Positions 51,162 to 59,952 of a stretch of 64,000 nt of DNA are shown here, piece after piece. Both the position numbers and the translations under genes were made by a program. Below the pieces are notes generated by a model that did not search any database, had not been told where the DNA came from, and saw nothing but the letters and a program-made list of their open reading frames with translations. The stretch is taken from the NCBI GenBank assembly GCA_025656675.1, contig JAHXHN010000010.1:1-64000 (forward strand), read 5' to 3'. The first letter of the stretch is position 1, and every line of letters starts with the position of its first letter. This DNA is from Candidatus Thiodiazotropha sp. (ex Codakia rugifera). GTDB taxonomy: Bacteria > Pseudomonadota > Gammaproteobacteria > Chromatiales > Chromatiaceae.

Positions 51162-51701
51162 TTAGCCAGTATTACTGTCGTCCTCCAAAGCCCAACGCCG
51201 CAACACTTGATACCGTGCAGCGGACGAACCCGAGTTGGTTGAAGATGCCAGTACAAATTCCCTGGCCTGCCAGAAAATGGATGCCCCTAATCGAGCAGGC
51301 GTAGCATGACGTGCTTTTCTATAGAGCGTGACATGAGGTTTATAGGCTCGTTGTTCAGGTTCGAATCCGCAACCAAGCAACCCATCGTTTAGATCCTCTA
51401 CCAGTCGCTCCAGTTGTACCGGCGTATGATCGGGTGCGGCCCAAAAGATCTTCGGTCTGGGCCAGATACCGGTATGATCGAAGGTCAACTCAAAGGGGGC
51501 AACCTGAATGTCATCAGCTACTTTTTCAATACACTGGAATTGAGAGGCAGTAACCTGACCAAGAAAAACCAAGGTCATGTGAAGATCATCAGGATTATGA
51601 CGACGCCCTTCCCCCGGTGCCGATGCTTGTGCCAAAGCACTTAACTCATCACGCACCCTGATGCTGGGCCAGAGCGCAAAGAAGAGGCGTTGATTAACCA
51701 T
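51162..51701 (-). CDS. thpR: RNA 2',3'-cyclic phosphodiesterase ThpR
   Basis: A 2H-family enzyme that opens 2',3'-cyclic phosphates on RNA. The two catalytic motifs are LHMTLVF and HVTLYRK, spaced as in the family, and the N terminus MVNQRLFFALWPS is typical. About 179 residues. ATG 51701 lies eight bases inside the end of pncC, so the two are coupled, a pairing common in gammaproteobacteria. It is the last gene of the long minus-strand run that includes the GAK-type genes. Confidence 0.93.
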   Translation of the reverse strand: MVNQRLFFALWPSIRVRDELSALAQASAPGEGRRHNPDDLHMTLVFLGQVTASQFQCIEKVADDIQVAPFELTFDHTGIWPRPKIFWAAPDHTPVQLERLVEDLNDGLLGCGFEPEQRAYKPHVTLYRKARHATPARLGASIFWQAREFVLASSTNSGSSAARYQVLRRWALEDDSNTG

Positions 51702-52197
51702 TACCCAATAGTTGCACAAGTTGCTTCAAGGCATGCACAACAGCTTGCCAACGAACCTGTTGACGGTCACCGTCAAACCACTCCTCGCCAGTGAACAGCA
51801 CTTTTCCCTTGATCTGCCAGGCAAAACAGACTGTTCCCACAGGCTTTTCTGCACTGCCGCCTCCCGGACCTGCAATACCACTGATCGCTACCGCCACTTC
51901 AGCCCCGCTGTTACGCAACGCCCCTTCGGTCATTTCACAGACGATCTCCTTGCTCACAGCGCCATGCTGCTGCAATGTGTCAGAAGTAACACCCAGCATT
52001 GCCTGTTTAGCCTGGTTGCTATAAGTCACAAACCCCCTGTCGAACCATTCACTGCTCCCTGGCAGATCGGTTAAAATCTTTGCCAGCCAACCACCGGTAC
52101 AGGATTCAGCAACAACCAGCCGATACCCCTGATAACGCAGGTGATCTGCACATTGGCCGGTCAGTGCATGAATGGCATCGACTGCCGTCTCATCCAT
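51694..52197 (-). CDS. pncC: Nicotinamide-nucleotide amidohydrolase PncC (CinA C-terminal domain)
   Basis: Converts NMN to nicotinate mononucleotide, recycling pyridine nucleotides. The 167-residue protein is the stand-alone CinA C domain: RLVVAESCTGGWLAKILTD, SSEWFDRGFVTYSNQAK, and VAVAISGIAGPGGGSAEKPV with GTVCFAW are its signature blocks. It starts directly after the amphi-Trp gene stop (no gap), and overlaps thpR by eight bases. In many gammaproteobacteria pncC precedes recA, but here it is joined to the GAK-type cluster. Confidence 0.95.
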   Translation of the reverse strand: MDETAVDAIHALTGQCADHLRYQGYRLVVAESCTGGWLAKILTDLPGSSEWFDRGFVTYSNQAKQAMLGVTSDTLQQHGAVSKEIVCEMTEGALRNSGAEVAVAISGIAGPGGGSAEKPVGTVCFAWQIKGKVLFTGEEWFDGDRQQVRWQAVVHALKQLVQLLGNG

Positions 52198-52473
52198 CTA
52201 CTTCAATTTTACTCTTAGGGTTTTACTTTTTTTCGGTCGCTCCTCTTCAACCTGCCAGGCAATGCGCAAATTGATACGATGCCGCTCCGCATCCTGTGCT
52301 GCCGTCACCTTCAACTGCAACAGGCCATCCGGTTGCATGACCATCTCGTCGTCTTCATCGCTTAAGGTAAGTTTGCCTTTGGCGATACCTTGGGAAATCG
52401 ACTTCAATAGCGCCTGGATAGACGCTCTATCCTGTAGCGATTCGTGACGAAAATTTTTCTTGCCCTGTCTCAT
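52198..52473 (-). CDS. Amphi-Trp domain protein (GAK-system component)
   Basis: A 91-residue soluble protein consisting of a single amphi-Trp domain: FRHESLQDRASIQALLKSIS, GIAKGKLTLSDEDDEMV and LRIAWQVEE with the family Trp. A basic tail (RPKKSKTLRVKLK) follows. I know this domain as one of three named for the GAK system (ATP-grasp, amphi-Trp, kinase); its biochemical role is not established, and similar domains also occur alone in haloarchaea. ATG 52473 is used, 13 bases after the phosphoesterase stop. The HprK-related and ATP-grasp genes lie 3.4-5.6 kb upstream on the same strand. Confidence 0.85.
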   Translation of the reverse strand: MRQGKKNFRHESLQDRASIQALLKSISQGIAKGKLTLSDEDDEMVMQPDGLLQLKVTAAQDAERHRINLRIAWQVEEERPKKSKTLRVKLK

Positions 52474-52486
52474 GAGTTTTAACCTG

Positions 52487-53809
52487 TCAGACAAATGATT
52501 TTTGATCAAACACCTTGATATGTGGATAGTCGGTACTGACGCCCATTACCAACCGCTTCGGATGGAAGATGGTGACTGCAGCACCCTCCCCTGTCAGCCC
52601 CTCTTTTTTACGGGTATGACGATCTATCGTGGCATCGCATTCAAAGTGGATCATACCTTTGCGAAGCATGATGCGTTGCCCGTGATAACGATTTGCATGC
52701 CCGTGAACAATGGCATGGATATCCGCATCACGCATCTGCTCCACACCTTTGCGGGTCAGCGGCATATCCACATCCCGATACTTTGTACGAATCAGATTGG
52801 CAAGTGGACCGTAGTAGAACTCGAAGATTTCATCATCGATATGCTCCTTGAACTCCTTGTTGATATATTTAATGCCTTTGCGGTTGATAAGCTTAGCCAT
52901 CCTGTCATCGATGCCTGCATGGACAAACAGAAAAGAGCCCTGCCGATAAGCCAGTTGCATATTTTTAAAGAACCAGCTGAACTCACCACCGGGTTTAAGG
53001 AACAACTGCTGCCATTTCATGACGGCTGCATAGACCTGCCGTATGGTCAATCCAGCTTTCTCACAATCAACTTCAAAATCGTCGATCTTCTCCCTCAAAC
53101 GTTTCAATTCACGGGCCATCCGCTTGTCCGGCATAACCCAACTGGCCATTTTGGGAAACTCCTTAAACCAGCGTTTGGGAGGATAGAGAATACGCCGGCA
53201 ACTACGTGTCGGCGGTATACCCTTCAGGGCCGACTTACCTTGAAGATATTCATCGACAATCTCACGCAACATGGGAATGACTTTACTACCCATACGGATA
53301 AAGAAATGGTCATGACGTGGATCAGGATCCATACCCACCGAGGCAATACCCAGTTTGATGCGGATATCGTGATTACCCGCAAGGATTGAAATTTTTGCCC
53401 CCTGCTCTTTCAATCGATGCACAACCCGCAACAAGCGTAGATTACTGGGCCCTTTATCGAAACAGTCACCACCGATAACGAAGTGGGCCTGGCGACCGCT
53501 TGATGTCAGTTTTAGATCCCGATCTTTTTTTCCAGTTTTCTTCACCCCACCAGATGCCACCAGGGAGGCGATAAATGCATCGGCATCGGCATGGGGATCA
53601 GAAAAGAAAAAGAGCTCCTTTTTTGGCCAGCGCCATTTTTCCTGTTTCACGACCTCATTCAACAGCTGCTCTGTTGAATCGCGCTGCCCCCTCTCCTTAA
53701 CTACAGAACGTTGTTTGCCCAACAGCCATAACTCACTGGTTGTCGGCAGCTCTGCATCAATCCATTTCAGACCCTGATAGACCGGTAAATACTTTTGGTG
53801 AAACTTCAT
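52487..53809 (-). CDS. PPP-like calcineurin metallophosphoesterase
   Basis: A 440-residue phosphoesterase with all metal motifs in order: SDPHADADAF (DxH), GGDCFDKG (GDxxDxG), LAGNHDIRIKLG (GNHD), then FVHAGID and AIVHGHANRY. The spacing and the HAG/HGH pair look like PPP-type protein or nucleotide phosphatases. A roughly 130-residue insert between GNHD and HAG is basic and helical. Substrate is unknown; next to kinases it may reverse phosphorylation. ATG 53809 is preferred over TTG 53836, which overlaps the upstream gene. It sits 16 bases after the histidine phosphatase stop and 13 bases before the amphi-Trp gene. Confidence 0.85.
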   Translation of the reverse strand: MKFHQKYLPVYQGLKWIDAELPTTSELWLLGKQRSVVKERGQRDSTEQLLNEVVKQEKWRWPKKELFFFSDPHADADAFIASLVASGGVKKTGKKDRDLKLTSSGRQAHFVIGGDCFDKGPSNLRLLRVVHRLKEQGAKISILAGNHDIRIKLGIASVGMDPDPRHDHFFIRMGSKVIPMLREIVDEYLQGKSALKGIPPTRSCRRILYPPKRWFKEFPKMASWVMPDKRMARELKRLREKIDDFEVDCEKAGLTIRQVYAAVMKWQQLFLKPGGEFSWFFKNMQLAYRQGSFLFVHAGIDDRMAKLINRKGIKYINKEFKEHIDDEIFEFYYGPLANLIRTKYRDVDMPLTRKGVEQMRDADIHAIVHGHANRYHGQRIMLRKGMIHFECDATIDRHTRKKEGLTGEGAAVTIFHPKRLVMGVSTDYPHIKVFDQKSFV

Positions 53810-53825
53810 ATTATGAGTGACAGAT

Positions 53826-54575
53826 TTAGTCGACAAAAGCCTCTCCTTTTGAGCGGACTTTCCATTCTCCAGTCAGGTGGCGCCATGAACCTGAATAGCG
53901 TCGCTCAAGAAACACGGGGCGGCAATGATACATGCTCAGGGCCGCTATCTGATGAAATTCCAACACCCCGAGATGATGGGCTGCATGACGAAAGGCGGCA
54001 CCATGGCCGACGAAGAGTTTGACGGTATCCACCTCGACTTGATGTGCAAGTTCGGCAAGACGACTGTCAAGATGACTGGCCACCCGCTCGCCTGCATCCA
54101 TCAACGACTCTGCACCCTGTAGCGGCAGTCGATAGTGGCTATCTGACTTCCAGCCTGGCGGGGGTTGCGAAAAACGGGGATCCTCCTGCAATACCGCTTC
54201 AATCTGCCGGACTGTCAGGTTGCCTGCAGAACCCACGCTGCGCTCAGCCAATGCATCGAATGATTCGATTATTAAAGGGGTTGAGGCGCCGATTTGTAAC
54301 CCCTTACGAATCACTTCGGCAGTTTGCCAGCCACGTAAAAGCTGTGAGCTGTCAATCACTGGATGGAGTGCCCATTTGAACATCCCCAGGATACCCTGGA
54401 TCAGCGTCACTGATCTTTCCGCCTGCTCAGCCCCTTCGGGGTTCAGTGGAAAGGGCTGCAGGGCGCTTGGCGTATCGGGTAACTGATGATAATCCCCATG
54501 ACGCAACAAGGCGGCTATCACCTTAGCCACAGATCCTCCCCAGGTGGCGTCGGTGATACGAGGCCATTTGGTCAT
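53826..54575 (-). CDS. Histidine phosphatase family protein
   Basis: A 249-residue member of the phosphoglycerate mutase-like branch. The phospho-accepting His lies in ALLRHGDYHQ (RHG at residues 25-27), and the second catalytic His in LFVGHGAAFRHAAHHLG. Between them are an acidic/helical cap and TPLIIESFDALAERSVG, where Glu may be the proton donor. Family members hydrolyse phospho-sugars, nucleotides or phospho-proteins; the substrate is unknown. It begins the lower part of the GAK-type cluster, 198 bases after the SixA-Nudix gene, so a separate promoter is possible. Confidence 0.82.
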   Translation of the reverse strand: MTKWPRITDATWGGSVAKVIAALLRHGDYHQLPDTPSALQPFPLNPEGAEQAERSVTLIQGILGMFKWALHPVIDSSQLLRGWQTAEVIRKGLQIGASTPLIIESFDALAERSVGSAGNLTVRQIEAVLQEDPRFSQPPPGWKSDSHYRLPLQGAESLMDAGERVASHLDSRLAELAHQVEVDTVKLFVGHGAAFRHAAHHLGVLEFHQIAALSMYHCRPVFLERRYSGSWRHLTGEWKVRSKGEAFVD

Positions 54576-54647
54576 TCATCATGGTTTGCTTGGTCCACAC
54601 TCATTATGATGGCTCAGTTTGGATTATTATCACTAATATTTGGTCGT

Positions 54648-54663
54648 AAATGAACGCCAATCA
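54648..54663 (+). repeat. Dispersed 16-base motif, copy 2
   Basis: AAATGAACGCCAATCA, identical to 27005-27020, in the 198-base gap between the histidine phosphatase and SixA-Nudix genes. Confidence 0.4.
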
Positions 54664-54773
54664 GCACAAATTCATACAATGACACAAAACAGGGAAGCGC
54701 TTCACAGGTATGCCTACAGGTTCCTAAACACATATGCCATTACCGTGATTGACATCAATTCATGACCTGAACA

Positions 54774-55739
54774 CTATCCTTCCAACTGTTTCGCCAGGGC
54801 TTGAATCATCGGTTTCAACTCCGGCTGTCTTACACGTTTCATCGCCTGCTTCGGTGAGAGCCATTCCCGACCCCGATGTCGCTCCTCCCACTCATCCTCG
54901 GAAAGCTCCCGGCTCACCCGCATGGGATAAACCTGTACCGTACACTCGGCACCCCACTTCTCATAGGTGTAGCTCCCTATTGGTTTGTCTGAGACATCCC
55001 CCTCAACACCGGCTTCCTCAAGGGCCTCCTTTGCAGCCGATGCCTGCAAGGTCAATGAGGGTTCGCTGATGCCTTTCGGTAACACCCAATGTTTTCGTTT
55101 GCTTGACATGACCACCAATATTTCGGGCTTACCCTCTTGCATCCGATAGGGCACCACGGAAGACTGATTGTAGTAATAGGCCGGTCGATCACGTTGCTCT
55201 GTACCATTTTGATCGGGAAACGGAAATTTCTTTTCCAGGCTGCTGGCACGTGTAATAGAGAGCAGATGACCATCACCTACCTGCAATGTACGCCAGTCAT
55301 CGGGCATCTCGATTCTGGCCAAAGTGGCTGTGGGTATCAGCTTACCGTCATTGGGTAAGGGAATGCGTTCGCCCTCCAGGAATTCAGTCAATGCCTCCAG
55401 ACCCGGATTGTGGCCGACCAACAGCACTCTAGCACTATCAGCGGGAGCTTCTGCGAGCACCTGCAGCAAATCCTCCACCCGTGCTGCATAGATACGCCGG
55501 TCCTCCTTGATGGCATGGGCATCGCCTCCCATCGCCTTGAGCGCCTTCTCCGCAGTCACAATGGCCCGTTCAGCCGGTGAGCTGATGACCGTATCAGGTT
55601 GCAATTGTTGCTGCAGCAACCACACACCCATTCGCTGTGCACCACGCTTGCCACGGTCCTTCAATGGTCTTTGGAAATCCTCTACTTGTTCATTCCAGTC
55701 CGACTTCCCATGTCTGAGCAACATTAGTTCACGTGCCAT
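54774..55739 (-). CDS. SixA-type histidine phosphatase fused to a Nudix hydrolase
   Basis: A 321-residue two-domain enzyme. Residues 1-160 are SixA-like: MLLRHGKSDW (R9-H10-G11), SSPAERAIVTAEKAL, and VLLVGHNPGLEALTEFL with the second His near 110. Residues about 190-321 are Nudix: WVLPKGISEPSL and AAKEALEEAGVEG, with the REUxEExGU part intact (K-E-A-L-E-E-A-G-V) but Leu where the first box Glu is expected. That spacing resembles DIPP-type Nudix enzymes acting on diadenosine or inositol polyphosphates. SixA enzymes dephosphorylate phospho-histidine. ATG 55739 follows GGAG. It is 87 bases downstream of the HprK-like gene; substrate is inferred, not shown. Confidence 0.85.
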   Translation of the reverse strand: MARELMLLRHGKSDWNEQVEDFQRPLKDRGKRGAQRMGVWLLQQQLQPDTVISSPAERAIVTAEKALKAMGGDAHAIKEDRRIYAARVEDLLQVLAEAPADSARVLLVGHNPGLEALTEFLEGERIPLPNDGKLIPTATLARIEMPDDWRTLQVGDGHLLSITRASSLEKKFPFPDQNGTEQRDRPAYYYNQSSVVPYRMQEGKPEILVVMSSKRKHWVLPKGISEPSLTLQASAAKEALEEAGVEGDVSDKPIGSYTYEKWGAECTVQVYPMRVSRELSEDEWEERHRGREWLSPKQAMKRVRQPELKPMIQALAKQLEG

Positions 55740-55826
55740 TATCTCTCCACCTCCAAATTCATCTAACTGTCCCGTTTCTTTTTCACATTGGGTTATACCA
55801 TCTGTCGCTTTCACACAGACGCCAAG

Positions 55827-56945
55827 TTATTTACACCATTGTTTCAGGCACAACGCGGTCAGCTCGGTAAAATCCATACGCCCAGTTACCTCATAGACGC
55901 TAACACTCTTTAGTAGCTGTTGGTAGGCCGCCTCCTGCAATGGATCATCATCCTGCAGAAAAACCCCCAATTTGTCCTGGTAGAAAGGACCGGGAGATTT
56001 CATCACTGCGGTCAGCAATTCGTTACGCTGGGTAATATCGACTTTGGTCATGTTGACCGGGGAGCTATCCCTTTTACTCCAGTTCAATATCACCAGGCCT
56101 GACAAGGGCACAGCTGTCGATGTATCGATACGATCACGACCATAGAATTGTTGTACATCGACATCGAATTTCTCTTCCAGGTCCCATAACTCCTGCTTTG
56201 GCAGTTGCAGCAGCTGATCTCTCCTCTCTTCATCGATCAACGACGAGAGGCGGGGATTGTTCACCACCGTACCCGGGTTGATACGTGGTAGCTTGGGTAT
56301 GCCGACCGCTTCCACTTTCACCCCTTCACGACGTAGAAAAAGCCGATCATTGGTCAGATAACGACTCTGCGGGTGTTCCATCAAGTGGAGCATCAAAGTC
56401 GACTTACCTCCACCGGAAAACCCGGCCACGGCAATCGCATGTCCATTCAATATCAATCCGGCCGCATGGCAGATCAACCAATCCCTCTGTTGTAACCAGT
56501 TCATCACCTGAGAGTTGATGAAATTAATCAATTGGTTGTCATATTCCACACAGGGACCGACAGCAACCCGCCACTGTTCACTTTGCAGAAACAGCATCCC
56601 GGTACGCACCTTCAACACCAGACGCCCATCTGCCAATTCCAGATAGGCATCCTTGCGGCCACTTTTTCCCGGTTCACGGCGCCAGTCTATGAACGGCAGA
56701 TCGGTATCGAGGATATCGCGTTCAATGGCTGTGACTTCGATGGTGGAGACAGCCGGCTTTTTGGATAAATGGTTAAAGTACTTACCAAGACGATCCAGCA
56801 ACAGCTGACTGTTGGAGTGTATCACCAGACCACAATCGCCAATCGTGAGATGCAGTGGTTTCTCGCAAAGCTCCACACCTTTCATCATCAGCGCGGCAGC
56901 AGCCTTTGCATCGGTAGTCGCTTCCCATTCGGTATTTTCATTCAT
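55827..56945 (-). CDS. HprK-related kinase (GAK-system kinase B)
   Basis: A 372-residue protein with the HPr-kinase fold in its C-terminal half. The capping His lies in LICHAAGLILNGHAIAVAG (His160), the P-loop is GFSGGGKST (175-183), TNDRLFLRR gives the Asp200 expected for the kinase, and GIPKLPRINPGTVV is the segment that follows in HprK. The N-terminal 155 residues are not HPr-kinase-like. No HPr gene is near, so the target is not phosphotransfer-system HPr. This fits the family I know as HprK-related kinase B of GAK systems. It overlaps the ATP-grasp gene by four bases. Confidence 0.88.
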   Translation of the reverse strand: MNENTEWEATTDAKAAAALMMKGVELCEKPLHLTIGDCGLVIHSNSQLLLDRLGKYFNHLSKKPAVSTIEVTAIERDILDTDLPFIDWRREPGKSGRKDAYLELADGRLVLKVRTGMLFLQSEQWRVAVGPCVEYDNQLINFINSQVMNWLQQRDWLICHAAGLILNGHAIAVAGFSGGGKSTLMLHLMEHPQSRYLTNDRLFLRREGVKVEAVGIPKLPRINPGTVVNNPRLSSLIDEERRDQLLQLPKQELWDLEEKFDVDVQQFYGRDRIDTSTAVPLSGLVILNWSKRDSSPVNMTKVDITQRNELLTAVMKSPGPFYQDKLGVFLQDDDPLQEAAYQQLLKSVSVYEVTGRMDFTELTALCLKQWCK

Positions 56946-57832
56946 GCTGCAAGTTCCTTCAGGATGTAGGAGATATAGCGTGTAGGGACATCGATACCTA
57001 TGCCCTTTTGTGCTCCACGAAAGCCACCAAATGCAGAGACCTCGAAGACGATGGGGCCCTGCTCCGTCTCAGCCACATCAACGGTGGTGAAATCGAGGCC
57101 GAAGATCGCCTGGGCCTTAGTGGCCAACTCGACCAGCTCATCATCTGCATCATACCCCTCGTAGTGCCCACCGCTTAAAATGGTAGTATTCCAGGCCCCC
57201 GACTTACCCACCCGTGCATAGCTGCCGAGATACTCGCCATCGAGAAAAACCATCCCCAGATCCTTGCCGGGGAGATGCAGTTTCTTCTGTATATACATCA
57301 CCGGATTTGTGGCTCGAAAGGCCTCAATCTGTTGTTGCACCGCCTGCTGATCTTGATCGGCATCGATCAATGTCATCCCCCGCGCCTTGGTTGAATAGAG
57401 TGGCTTAAAGACAGCTGAGCCAAACTCGTTGACGGCATCGGCTGCAAGTGGAAGGCTCTCGGTAACCCGTGTCGGGGGCATGGGGATTCCGGCATTGTAG
57501 AGTGACATGGTGCAACTGAGACGATCGATGAGACGTATGATCCGTTCCACCCGACTGAAAACCCGTACCCCGGCAAGCTCCAGTTGTCGCAACATCTCCA
57601 GCCTGTCCAGGGCATGGGGACTGTATATCTCGCTGATCTTCTTGACCACCAGTGCGTCGAGTTGGGTCAGATCCCAATCATGATAAAGGAGCCTGCCTGT
57701 ATCGAGTTCGGCAGTGACATCCGCCATATCGATGACCAGACGAAAGCCGGTCGCTTCATCCACTGCGTCGGCCAGGGCCTCGGTGGACCATTTCCCGGGG
57801 ATACCTACGACCCCGATTTTTGGTTTAGCCAA
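56942..57832 (-). CDS. RimK-like ATP-grasp ligase (GAK-system ATP-grasp enzyme)
   Basis: A 296-residue ATP-grasp protein. The N-terminal Rossmann-like part starts KPKIGVVGIPGKWST. The ATP domain has VFKPLYSTKARGM (Lys143), YIQKKLHLPGKDLGMVFLDG (hinge, about 180-199), FTTVDVAE (Asp252) and VFEVSAFGGFRG (Glu264). Ser266 stands where RimK-type ligases usually have the metal-binding Asn. The enzyme should ligate an amino acid or phosphorylate a carboxylate or phosphate; the partner is unknown. Overlaps with the kinase gene (four bases) and with the PhoU-APH gene (eight bases) make these three a translation unit. Confidence 0.87.
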   Translation of the reverse strand: MAKPKIGVVGIPGKWSTEALADAVDEATGFRLVIDMADVTAELDTGRLLYHDWDLTQLDALVVKKISEIYSPHALDRLEMLRQLELAGVRVFSRVERIIRLIDRLSCTMSLYNAGIPMPPTRVTESLPLAADAVNEFGSAVFKPLYSTKARGMTLIDADQDQQAVQQQIEAFRATNPVMYIQKKLHLPGKDLGMVFLDGEYLGSYARVGKSGAWNTTILSGGHYEGYDADDELVELATKAQAIFGLDFTTVDVAETEQGPIVFEVSAFGGFRGAQKGIGIDVPTRYISYILKELAA

Positions 57833-59462
57833 TGAATATCTCCTTGATAGGCACCTGAAAACGGCGCTTTGGTTTGGATTCGATTTCGAGCAGTCTCTCC
57901 ATCAGGTAAGTCGCACGAAAGAACATTCTCCGCGACAGGGATTTATCGAGAATAAACCGGGTCGAGGTGGCAAAGGACCGTACCAGCCCCATTGCCAGAC
58001 GGATTTCGAAGGTTTCATCGCCGGTCTTACGGGCGAAAGCCCTGGCGAAGCGATAGAAGGCTCGGCAGAGTTCCATGATCCGCTGCCGAACCCGGGGATC
58101 GAAGACCTGAAGTCGGTAGTTGGATACCATGAAAACACTGACATCCTGCAGATAGTCCATGTAGCGGGAGCGGTGCAGATCGATAAAGTTAATGCGCTTC
58201 TCATCCGGGTCGAAAATGATGTTATCGACATTAAAGTCGCCATGGATATAGACTGAGAATGGCACTTTAATATCTGATTCAAACTCTTGCATCCTCTCGA
58301 GTAGTTGATCGAAAGACGGCAACCGGGTCGAGCCGATTTGAGAAGAGGGCTGCCTGAACTCGGGATGTATCGCGTAAACATCCTCCATCCGTTTCGCAAG
58401 TTGTTTCATATAACCGGCGGAAACAGGTTTTTTGGTACGTGTCTCCAACCAGACACGGGTCAGGGTTTTGGTCAAATGATTGAGTCCGTTCTGTAGCAGC
58501 TTGTCCGATCCATCCAGCAATATCTGTTCAATGGTCTGGCCGGCGAGATGTTCGATCAACAGGGCGGCGGAGTCACCCTGCTTCTGGTAGGCCAGTATTT
58601 TGGGCGCCAGACCCGGAAAGATATCGTGCCAGTCATTGACCCGCTGCTTCTCCTCCTTGAGTTTGCGTTTGCGTCCATCCTTGAAGATACCGTCGTAGCC
58701 ACTCCCCCGCCTGCCGGTCGTGACGGCATTGATGGCACTGCCTGACTTGGTCTCAGCGATGGCCTCCACCTGAACCTTACCCACATCATTGACCGCCTTC
58801 AGCTCTGTGATCGAGGCAGCAAAGGCATGGTATCGATCGGTGTTGAAGTGCTGCCCCATCGAGACAGATATGATCGCCTCGCTGATACGTAACAGTGCAT
58901 TCCCCATCTGTTCGATCTTGTGCGCCAACATGATCAGGGTAATCCGGTCCGATGGCCGTTTCTCCTTTTTCAACAAGCGGGAGTAGCGCTTCAACTGTTT
59001 TTGATAGGCATTGTCCAGACGTTGTTCCACCTTGCCGATCTTCAGTGCTTGCCGCGTATCCTTTGCGGTCAGGGCAGGCTCGATCATCTCCAGTGCATTG
59101 CTCACCTGATCGATCATATGCAGATAGTCTTTAACCTTCAGAATCGCCCTGTTCCGCAAGTGTACACTCTGCATCACCGCTTCCCGGCTGAGCTCAGCCA
59201 CCCGTTCAAGATGGGTGGCGATCCCCTCGACTGCACGCAACAGCTGGTGATCTGAATCCTGCTGGTTGCTTGACGCCATCTGCCTGAGACAGTGATTGTG
59301 GATACTCAGCTTCAGGTTTTCCACATAACCCTGACGATCCTGCAAACGTGAAGGGATACTGGCGGATGGCAAAGTAAGATACTCTTTCAGCAAGGCCAGA
59401 TGAGAACCTGTTTCTGCCAGAAGGAACTGGAGATTATCGCGGATGCTTTTTGCTAGGGGCAT
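57825..59462 (-). CDS. PhoU-like domain fused to an APH-type kinase
   Basis: A 545-residue two-part protein. The first 240 residues are two helical bundles with PhoU-like spacing (NLQFLLAETGSHLALLKEYL and LITLIMLAHKIEQMGNALLR-type helices). The rest is an aminoglycoside-phosphotransferase-fold kinase: SVYIHGDFNVDNIIFD is the catalytic HGDxxxxN loop and INFIDLHRSRYMDY holds the metal-binding Asp. The nucleotide-binding part is not as clear. Such kinases phosphorylate small molecules or proteins, so resistance is unlikely here. PhoU domains usually read phosphate supply. ATG 59462 is used, one base after the Nudix stop. Overlaps the ATP-grasp gene by eight bases. Confidence 0.82.
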   Translation of the reverse strand: MPLAKSIRDNLQFLLAETGSHLALLKEYLTLPSASIPSRLQDRQGYVENLKLSIHNHCLRQMASSNQQDSDHQLLRAVEGIATHLERVAELSREAVMQSVHLRNRAILKVKDYLHMIDQVSNALEMIEPALTAKDTRQALKIGKVEQRLDNAYQKQLKRYSRLLKKEKRPSDRITLIMLAHKIEQMGNALLRISEAIISVSMGQHFNTDRYHAFAASITELKAVNDVGKVQVEAIAETKSGSAINAVTTGRRGSGYDGIFKDGRKRKLKEEKQRVNDWHDIFPGLAPKILAYQKQGDSAALLIEHLAGQTIEQILLDGSDKLLQNGLNHLTKTLTRVWLETRTKKPVSAGYMKQLAKRMEDVYAIHPEFRQPSSQIGSTRLPSFDQLLERMQEFESDIKVPFSVYIHGDFNVDNIIFDPDEKRINFIDLHRSRYMDYLQDVSVFMVSNYRLQVFDPRVRQRIMELCRAFYRFARAFARKTGDETFEIRLAMGLVRSFATSTRFILDKSLSRRMFFRATYLMERLLEIESKPKRRFQVPIKEIFIG

Positions 59463-59463
59463 A

Positions 59464-59952
59464 TCAGTCAATCACTCCCAAATAGGTTGGTGTATTAACT
59501 GTGGAGAGGTTTTGCACATGCGATGCAATACCTTTGGGGAAGAGTTCCACATTGGGGATATCGGAAAGTGGCAACCAGACCACATCGATCTGGTGTTTGT
59601 CTGGATGGTGTCCGGAAACGGGACGATAGGTTGCAGGGAGTGAACAGGCAAAGAGAAACTCAATCAAATGCCTGACCGAGGGGTAAGCTGTGTCACGTTG
59701 TTTATAGAAGTCCGCCACACAGAGCAGTGAATCGATCTCCACCCGGGCACCGATCTCCTCCTCACATTCGCGAATCAATGCCTGAGCCAGACTCTCTTCA
59801 ACATCCTGTCCACCGCCTGGCAGGGTATACCAGGTACCCCGACTCTCCGACCACTTCTTCTGCATCAATACTGCTTCGTCCCGTACGATCACGGCGCGCA
59901 CAGCGTTTCGAATGACAGGTTCCAGCCCTTCTGGTGGCGGTCGGTCGTTCAT
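59464..59952 (-). CDS. Nudix hydrolase
   Basis: A 162-residue Nudix enzyme with the complete box GGGQDVEESLAQALIREC followed by EEEIG (residues about 46-67). It cleaves an X-diphosphate bond in a nucleotide or related substrate. WYTLPGGGQ before the box and the C-terminal VVWLPLSDIPNV are typical of ADP-ribose/NTP-type members, but the substrate is not identified. It sits one base ahead of the PhoU-APH gene and 64 bases after dgkA, so it may start the cluster transcript or read on from dgkA. Confidence 0.9.
   Translation of the reverse strand: MNDRPPPEGLEPVIRNAVRAVIVRDEAVLMQKKWSESRGTWYTLPGGGQDVEESLAQALIRECEEEIGARVEIDSLLCVADFYKQRDTAYPSVRHLIEFLFACSLPATYRPVSGHHPDKHQIDVVWLPLSDIPNVELFPKGIASHVQNLSTVNTPTYLGVID

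Follow-up and report, generated by a model that had tools for sequence, protein, structure and literature searches.

We analyzed a 64,000-nucleotide window of Candidatus Thiodiazotropha sp. (ex Codakia rugifera), from a genus whose members live in lucinid clams as sulfur-oxidising symbionts (assembly GCA_025656675.1, contig JAHXHN010000010.1, positions 1 to 64,000 of the forward strand). The window carries an operon built around the trio of protein families known as the GAK system: an amphi-Trp protein, an HprK-related kinase (kinase B, HprB) and an ATP-grasp enzyme. Across relatives these genes belong to one unit, which comprises a six-gene core and optional genes for a SixA-Nudix fusion, a further Nudix protein and a CofD-like protein, and the window's operon is a typical member of this catalogued but unexplained system. 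In the set, two kinases stand with one ATP-grasp enzyme of the ligase type and as many as four phosphohydrolase proteins, with catalytic motifs kept. The simplest reading of such a gene set is a make-and-break cycle, and the theme with most support is phosphate or polyphosphate status. We favor, while judging it somewhat short of probable, the view that the genes form one operon serving a phosphoryl-transfer cycle that is tied to this status.

We searched for the window's genes in 37 fetched loci, and then built profiles and applied them to 101 distinct ATP-grasp loci, about 20 of which come from the window's genus or family. Because the relatives' loci include the best 80 of 497 ATP-grasp matches by score, the conservation figures are weighted toward Gammaproteobacteria. 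After removal of loci whose flanks were too short, 68 of the 101 remained for the downstream genes, 94 for phoU-aph and 64 for gene order. The order PhoU-APH, ATP-grasp, HprB, (SixA-Nudix), histidine phosphatase, metallophosphatase, amphi-Trp recurs in 57 of the 64 distinct loci with both flanks, and the set thus goes beyond chance. The phoU-aph gene lies beside the ATP-grasp gene in 93 of 94 loci. For the downstream genes, HprB is present in 67 of 68 loci, amphi-Trp in 65, the metallophosphatase in 64, the histidine phosphatase in 63 and SixA-Nudix in 53. For the first Nudix protein (nudN) the count is 43 of 95 loci, short ones included. Grouping at 75% ATP-grasp identity gave 33 groups, and PhoU-APH and HprB each occur in 32 of them, the histidine phosphatase in 26, the metallophosphatase in 24, SixA-Nudix and amphi-Trp in 22 each, the first Nudix in 13 and the CofD-like protein in 8 (counts uncorrected for short contigs). 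Two loci (L150 and L151) have no nearby histidine phosphatase or metallophosphatase and retain SixA-Nudix and amphi-Trp.

An earlier sequence-only reading of this DNA had named the GAK trio and expected it to recur with its neighbors in relatives. Both expectations were borne out: the three proteins pass the NCBIfam cut-offs in a profile search (Table 1), and the genes keep company in the loci described above. The same reading took the trio to be joined here by extra phosphate enzymes. All of these are present, with Pfam matches above the cut-offs for PhoU, APH, His_Phos_1 (two proteins), NUDIX (the fusion and the upstream protein) and Metallophos, but the data show a six-gene core with three optional genes rather than a trio with additions.

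Families TIGR04354 to TIGR04358 are presumably grouped as the GAK system, with CofD-like and XXXCH proteins as partners; among the family names found here, TIGR04356 and TIGR04357 alone contain the word GAK. The operon agrees with this system in having the trio above the cut-offs and a CofD-like protein in the genome. It differs in that PhoU-APH, the histidine phosphatase and the metallophosphatase are generically named in the NCBI-style annotation of locus L173, yet are about as constant as the trio. Neither partner had been seen in the sequence-only reading. The CofD-like gene is indeed absent from the window, but a CofD-like protein is encoded on another contig of the same genome (TIGR04357, G000:C5:270249-271352, 540.2 bits, cut-off 340), where we recognized no phosphate enzyme by eye among its neighbors. 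For XXXCH (TIGR04358) there was no match in the window's genome, in a search that also gave no match in any control genome. We found no paper on the GAK system among the open-access papers listed; GAK has family names yet no described function in the open papers searched. Defining its real extent, six core and three optional genes, together with the polyphosphate genes beside some copies, turns an orphan enzyme list into a testable pathway. If the favored reading is true, many marine bacteria would control phosphate through this operon, and substrates could be assigned to the HprK-related kinase, the PhoU-APH fusion and the odd ATP-grasp enzyme.

Table 1. Genes of the GAK operon in the window, with the profile matches of their products
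Gene	Product	Status	Position	Strand	Match and remarks
nudN	Nudix hydrolase	optional first gene	59464..59952	-	PF00293 60.8 bits
phoU-aph	PhoU-like helical domain and APH-type kinase fusion	core	57825..59471	-	PF01895 41.0 bits (cut-off 23.5), PF01636 40.9 bits
grasp	GAK ATP-grasp enzyme, RimK/MptN-like	core	56942..57832	-	TIGR04356 430.6 bits (cut-off 300)
hprB	HprK-related kinase B, predicted PEPCK/HprK-like fold	core	55827..56945	-	TIGR04355 337.4 bits (cut-off 200)
SixA-Nudix	SixA histidine phosphatase and DIPP-like Nudix fusion	optional	54774..55739 (likely start)	-	PF00300, PF00293; listed open reading frame (ORF) start 55814
hphos	histidine phosphatase	core	53826..54575	-	PF00300 46.4 bits
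ppp	PPP/ApaH-like metallophosphatase	core	52487..53836	-	PF00149 27.7 bits
amphi-Trp	amphi-Trp protein	core	52198..52473 (likely start)	-	TIGR04354 65.9 bits (cut-off 31); listed ORF start 52509

Ten minus-strand genes lie within 51162-59952. The coupling of these genes by tight joints, claimed from the sequence, holds: nudN and phoU-aph overlap by 8 bases, phoU-aph and grasp by 8, grasp and hprB by 4, and hphos and ppp by 11, and the joint between amphi-Trp and pncC is of zero bases. The gap from SixA-Nudix to the histidine phosphatase is 198 bases. Homologues of amphi-Trp mostly start at M13 of the listed ORF and those of SixA-Nudix at M26, and on this basis the true starts are likely 52473 and 55739, the latter also because GGAGG (Shine-Dalgarno) stands directly upstream. 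With a start at 52473 the listed 23-base overlap between amphi-Trp and ppp disappears. No structured RNA was found in the window at gathering score, and promoter and terminator predictions were not above those in shuffled sequence.

In the cycle that we propose, the PhoU-APH kinase and the HprK-related kinase would phosphorylate a small metabolite or carrier, and the ATP-grasp enzyme would couple the phosphorylated product, via an acyl-phosphate, to an amine or other nucleophile. In genomes that have it, the CofD-like protein would transfer a phospho group from a nucleotide-linked donor, and amphi-Trp may serve as a small adaptor or carrier. SixA-Nudix, the histidine phosphatase, the metallophosphatase and the extra Nudix would strip phosphate or pyrophosphate and so reset the cycle. 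Through its PhoU-like domain the kinase would be coupled to phosphate supply, and polyphosphate storage would be the target of the cycle's output.

Both kinases keep their catalytic motifs. The APH motif HGDFNxDN is conserved in 97 of 98 PhoU-APH sequences (one row is gapped), and the P-loop of HprB is conserved almost everywhere. The AlphaFold model of HprB (predicted local distance difference test, pLDDT, 91.8) was matched by Foldseek with probability 1.00, though at modest template-modeling (TM) scores, to PEP carboxykinase (PEPCK; E 8.3e-8, TM by query about 0.47) and to HprK (3tqf; E 2.1e-6, TM by target 0.64). HprB is thus predicted to have a PEPCK/HprK-like fold, and it has this fold and the P-loop in common with HPr kinase/phosphorylase and PEPCK. 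It stands outside the HPr kinase/phosphorylase sequence family and has conserved NDR and KxPRxNPG motifs of its own: searches with its sequence, in Pfam at E 0.1 and among PDB sequences at E 1, matched neither HprK nor PEPCK, and a PEPCK model was hit weakly (13.7 bits).

The ATP-grasp enzyme shares family and general layout with the RimK, MptN and LysX ligases. Its best match outside GAK is MptN (147.1 bits, below the MptN cut-off of 350), it scores 104.8 bits against the cut-off of 143.4 for the RimK subfamily TIGR00768, and it matches the RimK structure at E 2.4e-19. The motif FEVSAFGG[FY] is found in 101 of 101 sequences; relative to RimK, EVN has become EVS and FRSN has become WNTT. Because of these altered residues and the scores below the cut-offs, the enzyme probably acts on a substrate different from that of RimK or MptN.

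The kinase and the ATP-grasp enzyme also invite a different reading, a protein-modification switch in which HprB would phosphorylate amphi-Trp or another protein, the RimK-like enzyme would add amino acids and the phosphatases would reverse these steps. The target of HprK is a serine in a small protein, and that of RimK is ribosomal protein S6; these activities on proteins speak for a switch, as do the presence of amphi-Trp in most loci and a serine, S24, that is invariant in an alignment of 56 amphi-Trp sequences. However, S24 is replaced by Ala in L084 and L085, both of which keep the two kinases and the ATP-grasp enzyme (L085 is without a histidine phosphatase match). The amphi-Trp model (pLDDT 80.8, one helix and four strands) gave no match to HPr or to any other fold (best E 0.6), and amphi-Trp as an HPr look-alike was ruled out on that ground. 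The ATP-grasp enzyme lacks the RSN and EVN residues of RimK, and L118 and L135, where only PhoU-APH and ATP-grasp lie nearby, keep these two without amphi-Trp in the fetched stretch. We consider a protein switch rather unlikely, if worth keeping in view.

A third reading starts from the MptN match and the CofD-like partner: the operon could make a phospho-cofactor, with the CofD-like transferase and an ATP-grasp amino-acid ligase at its center and the kinases and Nudix proteins making and cleaning nucleotide-activated intermediates. Coenzyme F420 provides the analogy for this pairing. Of the 101 distinct loci, 33 have a CofD-like gene close to the operon, 32 of them with this gene on the opposite strand, and the gene co-occurs with the kinase. 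Among 398 genomes sampled from the phylum, six are CofD-positive, and five of these also carry the kinase (Fisher P 1.5e-7); among 56 relatives, 19 have both, 4 the kinase only, 2 CofD only and 31 neither (P 3.5e-9), and both P values are inflated because the genomes are related. Against this, the CofD-like protein is missing, at a threshold of E 1e-60, in 9 of the 14 kinase-positive genomes of the phylum sample and in four kinase-bearing genomes of the window's genus, and an operon with several hydrolases and no scaffold-building enzyme would be odd for cofactor synthesis. Such a role is in our judgment unlikely.

In a phosphoryl-transfer cycle the several hydrolases would reset the product. 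The RH[GA] motif of the histidine phosphatase is conserved in 84 of 85 sequences (one row gapped), and in 80 metallophosphatases GNHD is kept in 80, DxH in 79, GGDxxDKG in 79 and HAG in 75 (one has HVG and four are gapped). SixA-Nudix falls below the cut-off of the SixA family TIGR00249 (50.5 vs 74.5 bits), and RHG is present in the window protein. Its Nudix half is nearest to structures of the diphosphoinositol polyphosphate phosphohydrolase (DIPP) type (DIPP2, E 8.6e-13); an excerpt of PMC11323792 describes a fission-yeast DIPP-type Nudix enzyme as cutting polyphosphate and inositol pyrophosphates. Of the 74 SixA domains that could be read, 6 have lost the catalytic His. It is replaced by Gln with the Nudix half kept in L077, L080, L082, L083 and L088, so the SixA half may be a pseudo-enzyme in some lineages. 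We considered a second phosphatase as the explanation for this loss; one is present in all six losers but also in 62 of the 68 other cases, and the link therefore proves nothing.

In some relatives the neighborhood of the operon points to phosphate. We annotated 93 of 289 candidate ORFs, hand-picked after a CHAD cluster had been seen, in one locus from each of 32 of the 33 groups. CHAD was the commonest Pfam domain among them (5), and ParA-type ATPases were among several families at 3. The fetched stretches contain CHAD in 5 of 33 groups, vs about 0.09 expected if its density is assumed to be 0.6 per 4 Mb (P 4.5e-8, or 9.4e-6 if this density is tripled). A 21-kb stretch of L114 has, in this order, ParA, CHAD, two CNNM/CBS proteins, a CofD-like protein, the GAK operon, another histidine phosphatase, a Na/Pi cotransporter with PhoU, and finally PPK1. 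Parts of this arrangement recur in L105, L111, L122, L124 and L143, and PPK1 lies about 9-10 kb from the operon in L105, L124 and L143. In L082, CHAD and ParA genes stand on the same strand between ppp and amphi-Trp. Such polyphosphate-gene settings were seen in some gammaproteobacteria. According to an excerpt of PMC6537752, CHAD binds polyphosphate, and folD-ppk-parA-CHAD is described in an excerpt of PMC10892726 as a conserved gene group in Acidithiobacillus. CHAD, ParA and PPK1 thus recur beside some GAK operons as they do in that group, whereas the excerpt names no GAK gene. The window's genome itself encodes PPK1 (G000:C3:773530-774069) and has four PPK2 matches (four places on G000:C1).

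Several results weigh against a tie to phosphate or polyphosphate. Most of the 33 groups are without such neighbors in the fetched stretch (a Na/Pi cotransporter lies near the operon in three and PPK1 in one), and the polyphosphate genes of the window's genome are on contigs other than that of the operon. At the genome level CHAD was not enriched with the kinase (8 of 14 kinase-positive genomes vs 194 of 398 overall, P 0.59), and PPK2 was not found near any of the 101 loci, although each PPK2 query found its own locus. For a Pho box, the mean best match in the 1000 bases before phoU-aph at 87 loci was 9.9 of 14 vs 9.5 in shuffled sequence; single scores reached 13 of 14 in L084 and 12 of 14 in L085. 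The PhoU part of the fusion is divergent, and although it passes the Pfam domain cut-off it falls far below that of the full-length PhoU equivalog TIGR02135 (30.2 vs 130.25 bits). In the Nudix box of SixA-Nudix, KEALEEAG is present and the first Glu of the canonical motif is replaced. The reversible cycle suggested from the sequence, which would read phosphate supply through PhoU, gains indirect support from the polyphosphate and phosphate-transport genes around or inside some relatives' operons; against it stand the lack of CHAD enrichment, of a PPK2 neighbor and of a clear Pho box, and the divergent PhoU part.

A bolder version of the phosphoryl-transfer cycle would make GAK the bacterial counterpart of eukaryotic inositol-pyrophosphate control. 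It would make and destroy a soluble pyrophosphorylated messenger, not necessarily inositol; the PhoU-like domain would sense or gate it, and polyphosphate storage would be set through CHAD/ParA and PPK1. The kinase domain of Asp1/PPIP5K is an ATP-grasp. The GAK ATP-grasp enzyme instead matches amino-acid ligases, with no inositol kinase among its PDB sequence matches at E 1e-6. In the eukaryotic Asp1/PPIP5K and Aps1 proteins, as an excerpt of PMC11323792 presents them, a kinase domain, a histidine phosphatase and a DIPP-type Nudix likewise surround one phosphate-responsive cycle. We judge such a counterpart improbable.

Turning to distribution, the window's ATP-grasp is 98% identical to that of a Candidatus Thiodiazotropha metagenome-assembled genome, the nearest named record among the matches listed. 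The kinase is above the cut-off in 21 of 22 genomes of the genus examined (its own included), in 2 of 13 other genomes of the family and in 14 of the 398 of the phylum, where two more matches, truncated at contig ends, are below it. The system is patchy, as this last count indicates. The ATP-grasp gene is also found on five plasmid records, all from Rhodobacterales, and the two of these that were examined have the same six-gene core. Patchiness, plasmid copies and an AAA_21 and RloB-like pair inserted in one operon would suit an anti-phage defence island, and PADLOC matched nudN (PDC-S07, 38.8 bits) and PhoU-APH (PDC-M45A, 21.6 bits). However, these matches cover the Nudix protein and part of PhoU-APH, and the other six proteins had none at E 0.001. 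Within the genus, moreover, every stretch that is long enough shows the operon at a single site, with dgkA/lpxH on one side and pncC/thpR on the other. Defence is hardly credible as the function. The genes pncC and thpR lie downstream of the operon only in the window's genus and close kin (fewer than 3 of the 33 groups).

In a quick ATP-grasp tree, Alphaproteobacteria, Gammaproteobacteria and one planctomycete are intermixed, with 22 of 67 branches firm, which suggests, short of proof, transfer. One contig labelled as a Halobacteria archaeon (L112) carries the operon, and its ATP-grasp groups with gammaproteobacterial ones; the contig is perhaps wrongly binned.

Some loci show further rearrangements. 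The inserted AAA_21 ATPase and RloB-like protein, a possible defence pair, lie between the metallophosphatase and CHAD genes (L082:11105-12793). In two other loci (L122:12946-14826 and L143:13237-15033) ppp is separated from hprB by a reverse-strand gene and one more gene, and hprB and SixA-Nudix come after these; the L143 pair matches Exo_endo_phos and NUDIX, and the L122 pair are members of the same two clusters. Elsewhere in the window's genome (L175:7484-9780) a CHAD gene overlaps a ParA gene, a pair that is also found beside the GAK operons of some relatives.

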